A stretch of 64,000 nucleotides of DNA from Sphingobium yanoikuyae (GTDB lineage: Bacteria; Pseudomonadota; Alphaproteobacteria; Sphingomonadales; Sphingomonadaceae), in NCBI RefSeq assembly GCF_013001025.1, contig NZ_CP053021.1, forward strand, positions 4,058,001 through 4,122,000. The letters are read 5' to 3'. The notes beneath the pieces were generated by a model. The model was not told the DNA's origin. It ran no database searches and was given only the letters and a program-made list of their open reading frames with translations. This document shows positions 5,962 through 12,742 of this stretch, piece after piece (position 1 is the first letter of the stretch; the number at the start of each line of letters is the position of its first letter). A program made the translations under genes and the position numbers.

Positions 5962-6651
5962 ATGTATATGACGATGCAACCGACACAGGATGCGACCCGG
6001 TCGGGCTATGCCGCGCGGCGCAAATCACCGATCGGGATCGGCGGGGCAATTGCGGTCCATGCCGTGGTGGTCGGCGCCTTCCTGCTGATGCCCAAGGAGG
6101 TCATCGACTGGGTCCGCCCGACACCGCCGATTACCGGCTATCCGGTGCCGCTGCCCCCGCCACCCGAACCGGCACCACCGGAACCGACCACCCAGACGGT
6201 CCAGACCAACCCGCTGCCGCAAAAGCCGACCACCACCGATCCGATCGTGCCGATGCCCGTTCCGGCCGGCCCGACGATCGAAACCGGCCCATCCTCGCCC
6301 TTTGACGGCTCCGGAACCGGGACGGTCATTGATCCCCCCCTGCCCCCGCCACATATTCCGGTGCTTGTCGAAGCCAGCATAGCGCCCAATGCGCTCGGGT
6401 CTTTTCAGCCCGATTATCCCGGCGCGATGATCCGCCAGGGGCTGGAAGGCAACGTCACCGTGCGCGTCACCATCAGCCCGGAAGGGCGCGTCAGCGACAT
6501 CGTCAAGATTTCGGCGACCGACGAGAGCTTCTGGCTCGCCACGCAGAAGCATGCGCTGCGCAAATGGCGCTTCCGCCCGGCGACGCGCGACGGCGTCGCG
6601 GTGAGCAGCGTCAAGACGCTGACGGTGCGCTTCACCCTGACCGATCGCTGA
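5962..6651 (+). CDS. TonB family energy-transducing protein
   Basis: The 229-residue protein has the TonB plan: a short cytoplasmic N-terminus, one membrane helix (about residues 22-40, GGAIAVHAVVVGAFLLM), a long Pro-rich periplasmic spacer (residues about 50-135, with repeated PPPEP/PPEP-like stretches), and a C-terminal TonB fold with YPGAMIRQGLEGNVTVRVT and a final ALRKWRFRPAT. It would energise TonB-dependent outer-membrane receptors with ExbB/ExbD, which are not in this window. I place the start at the ATG at 5962, because AGGAGG lies 9 bases upstream (5947-5952); a GTG at 5953 in the same frame is too close to that site. Its promoter region has a repeated motif that may control it. Confidence 0.9.
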   Translation: MYMTMQPTQDATRSGYAARRKSPIGIGGAIAVHAVVVGAFLLMPKEVIDWVRPTPPITGYPVPLPPPPEPAPPEPTTQTVQTNPLPQKPTTTDPIVPMPVPAGPTIETGPSSPFDGSGTGTVIDPPLPPPHIPVLVEASIAPNALGSFQPDYPGAMIRQGLEGNVTVRVTISPEGRVSDIVKISATDESFWLATQKHALRKWRFRPATRDGVAVSSVKTLTVRFTLTDR

Positions 6652-8228: not shown

Positions 8229-8837
8229 ATGTTCACCGGCATCATCACCGACATCGGCACCATCCGCACCCATGAGCAGCGCGGCGACCTGCGCCTGGTC
8301 ATCGAAAGCGGCTATGACATGGAGACGGTCGCGATCGGCGCATCGATCGCCTGTTCGGGCGCCTGCCTGACGGTGGTGGAAAAGGGGCCAGGCTGGTTCG
8401 CGGTCGACCTGTCGGCCGAGACCGTCGCCCGCACCGCGCCGGGCCTGTGGGCACAGGGCGGCAAGCTCAACCTGGAACGCGCGCTGAAGGTCGGCGACGA
8501 ACTGGGCGGCCATATCGTCACCGGCCATGTCGACGGCATCGGCCATCTGGTGTCGGCCAGCCGCGAGGGCGATTCGATCCGCCTGGTCATCAGCGCACCA
8601 GCCGAACTGGCCGCCGCACTGGCCGCCAAGGGATCGATCACATTGGACGGCATTTCGCTGACCGTGAACAGCGTCGAGGACCAGCCCGACGGGAGCGTGC
8701 ATTTCGGCCTCAACATCATCCCGCACACCGCGATCGCCACCACGCTGGACAGCCTGCCCGACGGCCGGGCGTTCAATCTGGAGATCGATGTGCTGGCCCG
8801 TTATCTCGACCGGATGCAGAGCCTTCGCAGCAAATGA
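8229..8837 (+). CDS. ribE: riboflavin synthase, alpha chain
   Basis: The enzyme dismutates two 6,7-dimethyl-8-ribityllumazine molecules to riboflavin. The 202-residue sequence is two lumazine-binding barrels: the first starts MFTGIITDIGTI and holds GACLTVVEKG, the second holds HIVTGHVDGIGHL and GISLTVNSVED. Length and both repeats are normal. It starts 36 bases after ribD. Its stop codon at 8835-8837 abuts an inverted repeat that appears to belong to the ribB promoter region, so the operon may have an internal promoter here. Confidence 0.95.
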   Translation: MFTGIITDIGTIRTHEQRGDLRLVIESGYDMETVAIGASIACSGACLTVVEKGPGWFAVDLSAETVARTAPGLWAQGGKLNLERALKVGDELGGHIVTGHVDGIGHLVSASREGDSIRLVISAPAELAAALAAKGSITLDGISLTVNSVEDQPDGSVHFGLNIIPHTAIATTLDSLPDGRAFNLEIDVLARYLDRMQSLRSK

Positions 8838-8881
8838 TGTGATTTCACCCTTGAAGAAATCACATTGCAGTGTGATATAAT
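8837..8881 (+). promoter_or_regulatory. operator array and putative promoter in front of HTH-ribB
   Basis: ATGTGATTTC (8837-8846) and GAAATCACAT (8856-8865) are perfect 10-bp inverted arms with a 9-base gap. An overlapping near-perfect palindrome, ATCACATTGCAGTGTGAT (8859-8876), has 8 matching base pairs of 9. Together they give three TGTGAT half-sites at 8838-8843, 8859-8864 (reverse) and 8871-8876. A TTGAAG (8851-8856) to TATAAT (8876-8881) pair with a 19-base gap could be the promoter the sites overlap. The order suggests repression of ribB and ribH from an internal promoter, possibly by the HTH in RibB itself. I recognise no FMN riboswitch here. Confidence 0.5.
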
Positions 8882-8910
8882 CCTCATACCCGATCCGGGA
8901 AGGAGTGTTT

Positions 8911-10191
8911 ATGTCGTCCTCGCTTATCGATTCCGTCCGCGCCCTCGTCACCGATGGCGGCATGTCCCGATCGGGCCTGGCGCGCGCCGCCGGCCTGCAC
9001 GCCAACAGTCTGCGCAAGCTGGGCGAAGGCGACTGGAACCCGACGGCCGAGACGCTGGGCAAGCTGGAAGCCTATCTGCTCAAGCGCGAGGGCGGCACCG
9101 CACTTGCCAGCCCCGAGGAAATCATCAACGAGGCCCGCAACGGCCGCATGTTCATCCTGGTCGATGACGAGGATCGCGAAAATGAAGGCGATCTGGTCAT
9201 CCCCGCCCAGATGGCGACCCCCGACGCGATCAATTTCATGGCTACCCATGGCCGCGGCCTCATCTGCCTGGCGCTGACCAAGGGCCGGGTCGAGGAACTG
9301 GGCCTGGACCTGATGAGCCGCAACAACGGCACCCGCCATGAAACCGCCTTCACCGTATCGATCGAGGCGCGCGAAGGCGTCACCACTGGCATCAGCGCCG
9401 CAGACCGCGCCCGTACCGTCTCGGTCGCGATCGATTCCGGCAAGAGCAAGCGGGACATCGTCACGCCGGGCCATATCTTCCCGCTGATCGCCAAGGACGG
9501 CGGCGTGCTGGTGCGCACCGGCCATACCGAGGCCGCCGTCGATGTCGCCCGCCTGGCTGGCCTGAACCCGTCCGGCGTCATCTGCGAGGTGATGAAGGAT
9601 GACGGCACGATGGCGCGCCTCGACGACCTCATCCCCTTCGCCGCCAAGCACAAGATGAAGATCGGCACGATCCGCGACCTGATCGCCTATCGTCGCCGCC
9701 ACGACCATGTCGTCGAGCGACGCGCCGAAACCGTGTTTGAAAGCAAGTGGGGCGGCGAATGGAAGGCGATCACCTTCTTCAACAAGGCGACCAAGTCGGA
9801 ACAGCTGGTGCTGCAGAAGGGCAAGGTCGACCCCGACCAGCCGACCCTGGTGCGCATGCATCAACTCGCCCCGCTGAGCGACATTTTCGGCGGCGAAGGG
9901 CCGCGCGGTGACGTGCTGGCCCGGTCGATGGACATCATCGCCAAGGAAGGCGCTGGCGTGGTCGTGCTGCTGCGTGACGGCGAACCCGACATGCTGACCC
10001 GGATGATCCAGGCCCATGCCGGCAAGCAGCCCGGTGGCATGGACGAACTGCGCGACTATGGCGTAGGCGCGCAGATCCTGGCGGAGCTGGGCGTGCATGA
10101 CATGATCCTGCTCAGCAACACCCAGCACAGCCTGATCGCCCTTGACGGCTATGACCTGGCCGTGGTTGGGCAGCGTCCGATCGAGCTCTGA
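8911..10191 (+). CDS. ribB: 3,4-dihydroxy-2-butanone-4-phosphate synthase with N-terminal helix-turn-helix and degenerate GTP cyclohydrolase II domain
   Basis: The 426-residue protein has three parts. Residues about 5-58 look like an XRE-type helix-turn-helix ([20 protein letters not shown]). Residues about 66-262 are the DHBP synthase, with [21 protein letters not shown] and [10 protein letters not shown] catalytic motifs. Residues about 275-426 follow the GTP cyclohydrolase II fold ([14 protein letters not shown]), but where RibA has three zinc cysteines this protein reads [16 protein letters not shown] (319-334) with no Cys, so GTP cyclohydrolase activity is very unlikely (a RibX-like domain). 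A standalone RibA is expected elsewhere. The ATG at 8911 has GGAAGGAG 6 bases upstream; the earlier GTG at 8905 sits at the end of that site. Operator-like repeats precede the gene. Confidence 0.9.
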
Positions 10192-10202
10192 AGGATATTC
10201 GC

Positions 10203-10625
10203 ATGGCCAAGTTTCTCATCGTCGAAGCCCGCTTCTACGACCATCTCAACGACCTGCTGATCGAAGGCGCGAAGGCCGCGCTGGACGAAGCCGGCCACAA
10301 ATATGAGGTGGTGACCGTTCCGGGCGCGCTGGAAATCCCCGGCGCGATCGCACTGGCAGCCGAAACCGGCCGCTATGACGGCTTCGTCGCGATCGGCGTG
10401 GTGATCCGCGGCGAAACCTATCATTTCGAAGTGGTGTCGAACGAAAGCGCGCGCGGCCTGATGGCGCTGAGCATGGACGCCATCGCCATCGGCAACGGCA
10501 TCCTGACTGTCGAGAATGAGGAGCAGGCCCTGGTCCGGGCCCGCCCCGACCAGAAGGACAAGGGCGGCGAAGCGGCCAAGGCCGCGATCGCCATGTTGGG
10601 CCTGCGCGAGCGTTTCGCGATCTGA
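10203..10625 (+). CDS. ribH: 6,7-dimethyl-8-ribityllumazine synthase
   Basis: RibH condenses the RibB product with the pyrimidine from RibD to form lumazine, the substrate of RibE. The 140-residue chain has the family blocks [12 protein letters not shown] (about 40-51), [13 protein letters not shown] with the active-site His, and [12 protein letters not shown]. It is at the short end of the family (usually about 150-160), lacking a few N-terminal residues. It starts 11 bases after ribB and is the last gene of the operon, followed by a strong hairpin. Unlike many alphaproteobacteria, nusB does not follow. Confidence 0.95.
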
Positions 10626-10700: not shown

Positions 10701-11792
10701 TCAGGCGGCCGCCTTTTCCTCGGCCAAGGTCGGATAGTCGGTATAGCCTTCCGCACCCTGGCTGTAGAAGGTCGCCATCTGCGCCTGGGTCAGCGGCGCG
10801 CCTTCGCGCAGGCGATCGACCAAATCGGGATTGGCGAGGAAGGGACGACCGAAGCTGATCGCGTCGGCCAGACCAGAGGCGAGATCGGCCTGGGCGCGAC
10901 CCAGCCCATAATCGCTGTTGAGAACCAGCGGCCCCTTGAAATGCTGGCGGATCAGCGGCGACAGGCGCGGCACGTCGGTGGCGCCGAAGGTGCCGTCCGG
11001 GCCGGGCTCGCGCAGTTCGAGGAAGGCGATGCCGATCTGGTTCAGCACATCGGCGGCGGCGGCAAACAGCGGCTCGGGATTGCTGTCATTGACGCCCTGG
11101 GTATCGCCATTGGGCGACAGGCGTACGGACACGCGATCGGCGCCGATCGCATCGACCACCGCCTGCGTCACTTCACGCAGCAGGCGGACGCGATTTTCGA
11201 TGCTGCCGCCATAGATGTCGTCGCGGAAATTGCTGTTGTCGCGCAGGAACTGGTCGATCAGATAGCCGTTCGCGGCGTGGATCTGCACCCCGTCGAAGCC
11301 GGCGGCGATCGCATTGTTGGCCGCCTTCACATAGTCGGCGATGATGCCGGGAATTTCGTCGATGGCGAGCGGACGGGCGACCTCATAGGGCTTCTTGCCC
11401 TCATAGGTATGGGCGTCACCCGGCGTCGCGGTGGCACTGGACGAAACCGGCTGCTCGCCGGTGACGGCCGAATGGACGGCGCGGCCCATATGCCAGAGCT
11501 GGGCGACGATCAGCCCACCCTTGTCATGCACGGCCTGGGTGACCGGCTTCCAGGCCTCGACCTGATCGTCGGACCAGAGGCCCGGCGCATAGGGCCAGCC
11601 CAGGCCCTGGTGCGAAATGCCGGTCGCCTCGCTGATGATGAGGCCGGCCGAGGCGCGCTGCGCGTAATAATCGACCATGATCGGGGTCGGGACATGGTCG
11701 CGGGTTGCGCGGCCACGGGTGAGCGGCGCCATGATGGCGCGGTTGGCGGCAGTGTCGGCGCCGAGCTTTATCGGATCGAAAATAGTGGTCAT
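10701..11792 (-). CDS. alkene reductase, Old Yellow Enzyme family (NemA-like)
   Basis: FMN-dependent NADPH ene-reductases of this family reduce activated C=C bonds, nitrate esters and quinone-like electrophiles in the cytoplasm. The 363-residue protein carries the family markers: NRAIMAPLTRGRA near the N-terminus, QLWHMGR, the substrate-binding HAANGYLIDQFLRD and the conserved DDIYGGSIENRVRL, with a C-terminal FMN phosphate site DAISFGRPFLANPDL. The ATG at 11792 is preceded by a GGAGG site 5 bases away; an upstream in-frame ATG at 11873 overlaps the divergent gene and has no such support. It is divergent from a DMT-family exporter across a 17-base palindrome, which suggests joint control by an electrophile-sensing repressor not encoded here. 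Confidence 0.92.
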   Translation of the reverse strand: MTTIFDPIKLGADTAANRAIMAPLTRGRATRDHVPTPIMVDYYAQRASAGLIISEATGISHQGLGWPYAPGLWSDDQVEAWKPVTQAVHDKGGLIVAQLWHMGRAVHSAVTGEQPVSSSATATPGDAHTYEGKKPYEVARPLAIDEIPGIIADYVKAANNAIAAGFDGVQIHAANGYLIDQFLRDNSNFRDDIYGGSIENRVRLLREVTQAVVDAIGADRVSVRLSPNGDTQGVNDSNPEPLFAAAADVLNQIGIAFLELREPGPDGTFGATDVPRLSPLIRQHFKGPLVLNSDYGLGRAQADLASGLADAISFGRPFLANPDLVDRLREGAPLTQAQMATFYSQGAEGYTDYPTLAEEKAAA

Positions 11793-11809
11793 GAAACCTC
11801 CCTCATGAA

Positions 11810-11826
11810 CGTTGCAATTTGCAACG
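11810..11826. promoter_or_regulatory. palindromic operator candidate between the OYE and DMT genes
   Basis: CGTTGCAATTTGCAACG is an exact inverted repeat: 8-bp arms with a single central base. It lies in the 68-base gap between divergent starts, 18 bases from the OYE start codon. Size and symmetry fit a TetR- or MarR-like dimer site. No regulator gene is adjacent. Confidence 0.55.
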
Positions 11827-11860
11827 GGACTTGATGCAGAAAGCCAGCTAGGGAGCCGCC

Positions 11861-12742
11861 ATGGCCGCTTCAACCCCCATGGCGCATATCGCGACGCCCA
11901 GACTCGCTTTTCCGGCGCTGATCCTGGCCAATATCATTCTGGCGCTGGGACCGGTGCTGGTGCGGCTGGCCGATGTCGGGCCGGTGGCTGCCGCCTTCTG
12001 GCGACTGGCGATCGCCATGCCCTTCCTGTTCATCCTGGCATTGCCGAAGCTGCGCAAGAGCCGCTTGTCGCGCGGCCAGTGGACGATCGTGATTCTGGCC
12101 GGCGTCTGCTTTGCCGCCGATCTGGCCGCCTGGCATCTGGGCATCGGCCATACCAAGGTCGCCAACGCAACGCTGTTCGGCAATATGAGCGCGCTGATGC
12201 TGCCGCTCTGGGGCCTCGTCGTACTGCGGGAGCATGTATCGAAGCTGCAGATCGGCGCGCTGATCCTGGCCGCGATCGGCGCGGCCATATTGATGGGCAG
12301 CAGCTATGAACTGTCGCCTGTCAACCTGAAGGGCGACCTGTTCTGCCTGCTCGCCGGGCTGCTCTACACTACCTATCTGCTGCTGATCCAGGGCGCGCGC
12401 AAGCGGCTGGACAGCTGGTCGGTGCTGGCGGTCGTCAGCGCGGCCGGGGCCTTGCCGCTGCTGCTCGCCGCCAATGCGATGGGCGAAACGGTGATGCCGC
12501 AGGACTGGACCCCGCTCATCATCCTCGCCCTGTCCAGCCAGATCGTCGGCCAGGGACTGCTCACCTATGCGCTCGGCTGTTTTTCGCCACTGGTGCTGGG
12601 GCTCAGCCTGTTGCTGCAACCCGCAGTTGCCGCGCTGGCCGGGTGGCTGCTGTTCGGCGAAACATTGAGCGCGACCGACATTGTCGGCGGCGTGGCCGTG
12701 GCGGTCGCACTGGTGCTTGTGCGCCTGCCCCGACGGGCCTAG
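11861..12742 (+). CDS. DMT superfamily (EamA) transporter
   Basis: The 293-residue membrane protein has about ten hydrophobic helices arranged as two EamA repeats (about residues 15-145 and 155-290), typical of drug/metabolite exporters. Recognisable spots are the GPVLVRLADVGPVAAAFWRLA start of repeat 1 and the QIVGQGLLTYALGCFSP stretch of repeat 2. The substrate is unknown. It is divergent from an ene-reductase and may export the same kind of reactive compound that the reductase detoxifies; that is inference from position. The start ATG at 11861 has a weak GGGAG site. Confidence 0.9.
   Translation: MAASTPMAHIATPRLAFPALILANIILALGPVLVRLADVGPVAAAFWRLAIAMPFLFILALPKLRKSRLSRGQWTIVILAGVCFAADLAAWHLGIGHTKVANATLFGNMSALMLPLWGLVVLREHVSKLQIGALILAAIGAAILMGSSYELSPVNLKGDLFCLLAGLLYTTYLLLIQGARKRLDSWSVLAVVSAAGALPLLLAANAMGETVMPQDWTPLIILALSSQIVGQGLLTYALGCFSPLVLGLSLLLQPAVAALAGWLLFGETLSATDIVGGVAVAVALVLVRLPRRA

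Follow-up and report, generated by a model that had tools for sequence, protein, structure and literature searches.

A phage Cro-type domain and a co-occurring operator suggest an autogenous repressor-enzyme at ribB of Sphingomonadaceae

We analyzed a stretch of 64,000 nucleotides (nt) of Sphingobium yanoikuyae DNA (the window; coordinates are positions within it), which carries a ribB gene on the + strand (8911–10191, 426 codons from the ATG at 8911) whose product joins an N-terminal helix-turn-helix (HTH) domain to the riboflavin-pathway enzyme RibB. Sequence comparison makes it highly probable that this protein is an autogenous repressor-enzyme and that its regulatory module is of phage descent, an operator-promoter-cro cassette having been joined in frame to ribB early in the history of Sphingomonadaceae. 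The domains, the operator, their co-occurrence, the phage homologues and the shared geometry were all observed directly in the DNA and its translations. Riboflavin genes are usually regarded as riboswitch-controlled. In this large family of bacteria, control seems to lie with a protein, a switch that forms part of one of the pathway's own enzymes. In its domain, operator and spacing this switch agrees with phage Cro, and in most species the distance to the start codon agrees as well. If true, this would clearly exemplify the entry of an entire phage regulatory cassette, cis and trans parts alike, into a core metabolic gene, and it would bear on flavin production in sphingomonads.

The HTH-RibB protein and its operator

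The window protein, to which all residue numbers refer, has three parts: an HTH at the N-terminus, an intact RibB, and an X domain resembling GTP cyclohydrolase II. An earlier note on this DNA had described the same three parts, the last one without the three zinc cysteines, and was confirmed in that observation. The Cro-type HTH domain (residues 1–59, 8911–9087, +) includes the recognition stretch LHANSLR with N32 and R35. The RibB or DHBP synthase domain (residues 69–260 or 69–262, 9115–9696, +) is matched by Pfam with an E-value of 1.6e-83 and retains the conserved catalytic motifs, with residue 188, T206-E207 and E226 invariant in 52 aligned sequences. The X domain (residues 270–423, 9718–10179, +) keeps the RibA fold and contains neither cysteine nor the EGRG motif; no cysteine occurs beyond residue 225. 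By sequence comparison the same kind of X domain is present in HTH-less RibBX proteins, and it is therefore not tied to the HTH. A separate complete RibA, for which the earlier note had proposed a search, was found elsewhere in the 5.94-Mb genome (G000:C1:4377871, 209 bits), with all zinc cysteines (ECLTGDVFGSLKCDCG) and the EGRG motif (RQEGRGIGL) in place.

The operator consensus is an 18-base-pair (bp) palindrome, ATCACATTnnAATGTGAT, with the half-site order TCACA-N6-TGTGA. Its copy in the window, O1 (ATCACATTGCAGTGTGAT, 8859–8876, +), has one mismatch to the consensus, ends 34 nt before the ATG of ribB, and falls in the region that the earlier note had proposed for binding (8837–8881). An upstream half-site, GATGTGAT (8836–8843, +), is located 33 bp 5' of the right half of O1 and overlaps the stop codon of ribE. 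Two promoter-like elements on the same strand, TTGAAG (8851–8856) and TATAAT (8876–8881), can be read from the sequence with a spacer of 19 bp, and O1 likely lies inside the ribB promoter. Throughout the window genome, O1 is the only site at no more than two mismatches, with three further sites at three mismatches.

Across ribB loci the operator tracks the HTH. A first look at 15 sphingomonad loci found palindrome-like sites at all 11 HTH-bearing ribB genes and at none of the four HTH-less ones. In a first set of 159 loci, a site with no more than three mismatches to the consensus was present at 69 of 75 HTH-bearing loci, and none with four or fewer at the 84 HTH-less loci, one of which (L130, five mismatches) really bears an HTH. 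The enlarged set was cut to distinct sequence keys, which are not species: 120 were HTH-bearing, L130 and L378 included, and 64 HTH-less, 35 of the latter belonging to Sphingomonadaceae (L167 among them). Here the operator was found within three mismatches at 107 of the 120 HTH-bearing loci and within five at all of them, while the best value at the 64 HTH-less loci, in which a search with the HTH profile gave no match, was five. Only one of 2440 shuffled upstream sequences got to three mismatches. The two ribB copies of genome G079 differ in the same manner, the HTH-bearing one (L090) having 0 mismatches and the distant HTH-less one (L168) nine. As a separate observation, the second ribB copy L167 (G120:C2:61260-62459) matches the query from residue 19, inside the HTH, contains an in-frame TGA and shows nine mismatches; it is apparently decaying, and an intact HTH-ribB is present in the same genome.

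The alignment of 69 HTH-bearing loci, from which the duplicate L101 (= L010) was left out, shows CACA and TGT invariant in all and the following G in 68; picking the best match at each locus has introduced some selection in the outermost columns of the logo. An extra half-site 30–33 bp upstream (about 31 bp) occurs in 42 of the 69. Enrichment of TT(G) 4–6 bp 5' of the palindrome, and of TA where the palindrome ends, leads us to infer that the palindrome fills the would-be promoter spacer. The gap between palindrome and ATG is 11–13 nt in 75–76 of 107 ribB loci, where the leader RNA would be very short or missing. On the protein side, none of the 127 HTH-bearing rows, duplicates included, departs from N32 or R35. 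Three HTH-bearing loci (L214, L234 and L097), whose best operator has five mismatches, carry other inverted-repeat-like stretches nearby, and their operator may have drifted. Gene neighbors were compared in 88 loci of more than 2.5 kb, a set that still holds duplicates and whose 31 HTH-less members come mostly from outside Sphingomonadaceae: ribE stands just upstream in 19 of 57 HTH-ribB loci versus 30 of 31 HTH-less ones, and ribH downstream in 44 of 57 (two flanks being too short) and 30 of 31. The operator therefore travels with the HTH and not with the upstream neighbor.

Genome-wide scans gave the same picture. The Sphingomonadaceae sample comprised 99 genomes of 94 genera, 96 of which match the window protein, 95 as RibB rows; RibB is HTH-bearing in 73 of these 95, in keeping with the lineage-wide system that the earlier note had proposed. 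A site with no more than two mismatches precedes ribB in 51 of the 73 HTH-bearing genomes and in none of the 22 HTH-less ones. All 99 genomes together contain 61 such sites, namely the 51 at HTH-ribB promoters, three in one prophage region (G210) and seven elsewhere, and a control scan with the reversed pattern found matches in four genomes. There is mostly one site per genome, which makes a single target likelier than a regulon; a wider regulon is disfavored by this count and by the single site at this threshold in the window genome. Beyond the family, the HTH profile identified no frame of RibB length in 289 genomes of the class: 18 genomes matched at 21 places, and the three frames of RibB length all belong to Sphingomonadaceae. 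Frames at the remaining 18 places are 78–312 residues long, and the translations of nine were read. The flavin mononucleotide (FMN) riboswitch (RF00050) was absent from the window and, in an Infernal search whose stricter filters can miss weak matches, from 41 genomes of the genus, the window genome included. With such filters it was detected in 16 of 157 genomes of the order, all outside Sphingomonadaceae, and in none of 74 Sphingomonadaceae genomes.

Phage homologues of the HTH and the operator

Stand-alone homologues of the HTH occur in phage regions together with similar palindromes. In genome G210, both of whose ribB matches lack the HTH, a prophage encodes a 68-residue homologue (L225, 9212–9415) in the position of cro, divergent from a gene whose product matches both HTH and S24 peptidase (phrog_4, transcriptional repressor, E 6.9e-17); a phage-type primase is encoded about 3 kb away. 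The same stretch is found in the IMG/VR contig L243. Over 59 residues the window HTH is 53% identical to this L225/L243 Cro-like protein, from the same starting methionine onward. Between the cro-like gene and its ci-like neighbor stand two L225 operators with the ribB-type word (9161–9199), their ends 12 and 43 nt 5' of the ATG; a second pair with this word (6372–6420), 31 bp apart, is located 2.8 kb away, and the two-pair layout recalls OR and OL of phage lambda.

Further homologues lie opposite CI-like genes in sphingomonad genomes (L226, L227), opposite an XRE-type gene outside Sphingomonadaceae (L304), and on viral contigs (L246, L247). In Pseudanabaena phage Pan3 (ON968454.1), an unannotated cro-like frame (L300, 4007–4192), opposite two annotated hypothetical genes, has AGCATATTCTGATATGCT 12 nt upstream. 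In five of eight phage-type genes (L225, L226, L227, L247 and Pan3), exactly 12 nt separate the proximal palindrome from the ATG, and in L246 a palindrome at 12 nt is one of three candidates tied at five of eight pairs. L225, L226, L227, Pan3, L304 and L321 have a second palindrome, often a weaker one, 42–43 nt upstream of the ATG. The best palindromes reach seven or eight of eight pairs in six of the eight genes, versus 111 of 4000 shuffles, and L247 reaches six. The exact ribB operator was also detected in 52 IMG/VR contigs. A Cro-like frame adjoins it in one of them (L284), beginning 10 nt after the operator, with 43% identity to the window HTH over 54 residues and with a divergent XRE-type frame that has a weak PHROG match (E 0.004); the other 51 occurrences may be chance. 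By homology, then, and beyond what the earlier note had claimed, the HTH is of phage-Cro type and its operator has phage-type geometry.

The identity of residues 32 and 35 varies with the operator type. N32 with R35 accompanies the half-site TGTGAT in ribB, L225 and L284, and approximately in L246; T32 with R35 accompanies TGCGAT in L247 and L304; N32 without R35 accompanies TATGCT in L226, L227 and Pan3. L244 and L321 fall outside these three types, having no fit or not being placed. This pattern possibly reflects direct reading by the recognition helix, in a small set with shared ancestry.

History, mechanism and alternatives

A tree built from 175 RibB cores gives the Sphingomonadaceae HTH clade an SH-aLRT support of 98. 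Nested within this clade are 31 rows without the HTH, many of which are Sphingomonas-like. Outside it, and likewise HTH-less, fall three Sphingomonadaceae genomes (G093, G235, G237) as well as the second copy of G079. Apparently the HTH was gained once after the first splits of the family and later lost jointly with the operator in relatives of Sphingomonas.

Within the window, ribE (riboflavin synthase; 8229–8837, +) precedes ribB, the ribosome-binding site AAGGAG is read at 8900–8905 (+), and ribH (lumazine synthase; 10203–10625, +) follows 11 nt after ribB, the two genes probably forming one transcript. Beside the cluster ends a gene on the opposite strand (10701–11873, −), which we take to resemble an Old Yellow Enzyme-type flavoprotein.

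Known RibB structures are homodimers, and a RibB core dimer of this kind would present two N-terminal Cro-type HTHs. This pair would contact the O1 palindrome within the ribB promoter, assisted by another site lying three helical turns (about 31 bp) further upstream. Bound repressor would keep RNA polymerase from making ribB-ribH, and control by protein level without a ligand, as in phage Cro, may suffice. DNA binding, repression, the direction of transfer and the part of any ligand, absent or present, are what we infer from the observations above. The suggestion of the earlier note that the enzyme could be its own repressor gains support from the conserved upstream operator that tracks the HTH.

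Several points weigh against the repressor-enzyme of phage origin. The N-terminal 60 residues give only weak HTH-family matches, with the HTH Pfam score under the cut-off. The recognition stretch did not come out as a clean helix in AlphaFold models, a structure prediction of the kind that the earlier note had called for. As for the operator, 22 of the 73 HTH-bearing genomes have no site within two mismatches at ribB, and 13 of the 120 HTH-bearing loci reach only four to five mismatches, values that shuffles attain in 14 (four) and 73 (five) of 2440 cases. A consensus promoter scan of the window with 16–18-nt spacers gave no match, the candidate spacer being 19 bp. The start-codon geometry is clear in only five of the eight phage-type genes, the proximal palindromes of L304 and L321 not lying at 12 nt. 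Finally, inner support in the tree is weak and supported branches hold a single independent contrast between HTH-bearing and HTH-less ribB, so that gain once followed by loss is a reading and not a proof.

The strongest alternative to ligand-free control, to which we give somewhat less than an even chance, is a ligand-gated trigger enzyme, in which repression depends on ribulose-5-phosphate bound by RibB or on a flavin, GTP or a pathway intermediate bound by the X domain. Such a protein would replace the FMN riboswitch. It is opposed by the X domain itself, which has lost the zinc ligands and the EGRG motif and, being of the same kind in HTH-less RibBX, did not evolve for gating; moreover, Cro works without a ligand. 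A basically Cro-like repressor might also be tuned by a ligand, bound either at the RibB active site or by the X domain, and the sensor role that the earlier note suggested for the X domain is a guess.

It is quite unlikely that transfer ran in reverse, with ribB as the source of the phages' HTH and operator. Of the stand-alone homologues found, the closest is in a sphingomonad prophage, as such a transfer would have it, but stand-alone homologues with other operator types exist in other lineages (cyanophage Pan3; G540, outside Sphingomonadaceae), and the RibB-length HTH frames of the class sample are confined to three Sphingomonadaceae members. The HTH domain is too short for a firm tree test of direction. 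It is very improbable that the HTH is a structural remnant, with the palindrome serving a different regulator such as one of CRP/FNR type: the half-site TGTGA resembles CRP half-sites, but the order TCACA-N6-TGTGA is the reverse of the CRP/FNR order TGTGA-N6-TCACA, by which a CRP-type site was rejected, the site is usually single in a genome (51 of 61 at HTH-ribB), and the same operator precedes stand-alone homologues in phage regions.

The Cro-type repressor-enzyme leads to a prediction that we regard as a long shot: RibB, an essential vitamin enzyme with a domesticated phage domain, might silence the early promoter of phages with TGTGAT operators, a metabolic superinfection immunity, and the repressors of such phages might act on ribB. 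The one prophage with ribB-type operators sits in a genome with HTH-less RibB (G210), and in the two HTH-bearing genomes with cro-like prophage genes that were examined (G213, G227) the operator type is TATGCT. These three cases of host HTH state and prophage operator type are in line with immunity but no more than suggestive; if true, host flavin supply and prophage switches would read the same DNA word.

Comparison with known systems

We recognized no report of an HTH-RibB repressor in the literature searched, which left subscription journals mostly uncovered and does not establish absence from print. The nearest relatives are the RibBX proteins of Shewanella, Aeromonas and Acinetobacter (6mnz), which share RibB plus X, the loss of the zinc cysteines and a separate RibA. 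The 6mnz structure ranks with the best matches of the window protein in both sequence and fold; its alignment begins at residue 65, and it therefore has no N-terminal HTH. The Aeromonas gene, too, is described without one in the portion of its source that we consulted. In Shewanella the X domain influences RibB activity by means given as unknown in the consulted text (PMC10012899).

Trigger enzymes are metabolic enzymes that double as transcription factors, and PutA represses only its own put region, according to an excerpt of PMC8249747; BirA and NadR appear as enzyme-regulators in the passages seen of PMC5343134. Like BirA, NadR and PutA, the window protein combines enzyme and DNA-binding domain, here assigned by homology and fold, in one chain; unlike them, it is a different enzyme of a different pathway and has a phage Cro-type domain with Cro operator architecture.

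RbkR, an archaeal fusion of HTH and riboflavin kinase, differs from the window protein in both enzyme and HTH family. The two are alike in that a riboflavin enzyme is joined to a DNA-binding domain, which controls rib genes in RbkR and probably does so here. RbkR regulates the riboflavin operon, as stated in the part consulted of PMC10746257. The FMN riboswitch controls riboflavin genes in many bacteria (PMC3766115, with its distribution also in PMC4418817, both from excerpts) and is an RNA element, in contrast to the protein switch proposed here.

With temperate-phage Cro the window protein shares the small XRE-type HTH, and the ribB loci share the paired upstream palindromes, the 12-nt gap to the ATG and the spacing of about 31 bp. 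It differs in that the HTH is fused to a vitamin enzyme and that the neighbors are ribE and ribH with no divergent CI gene; the domain is thus of Cro type, but the gene is not cro.
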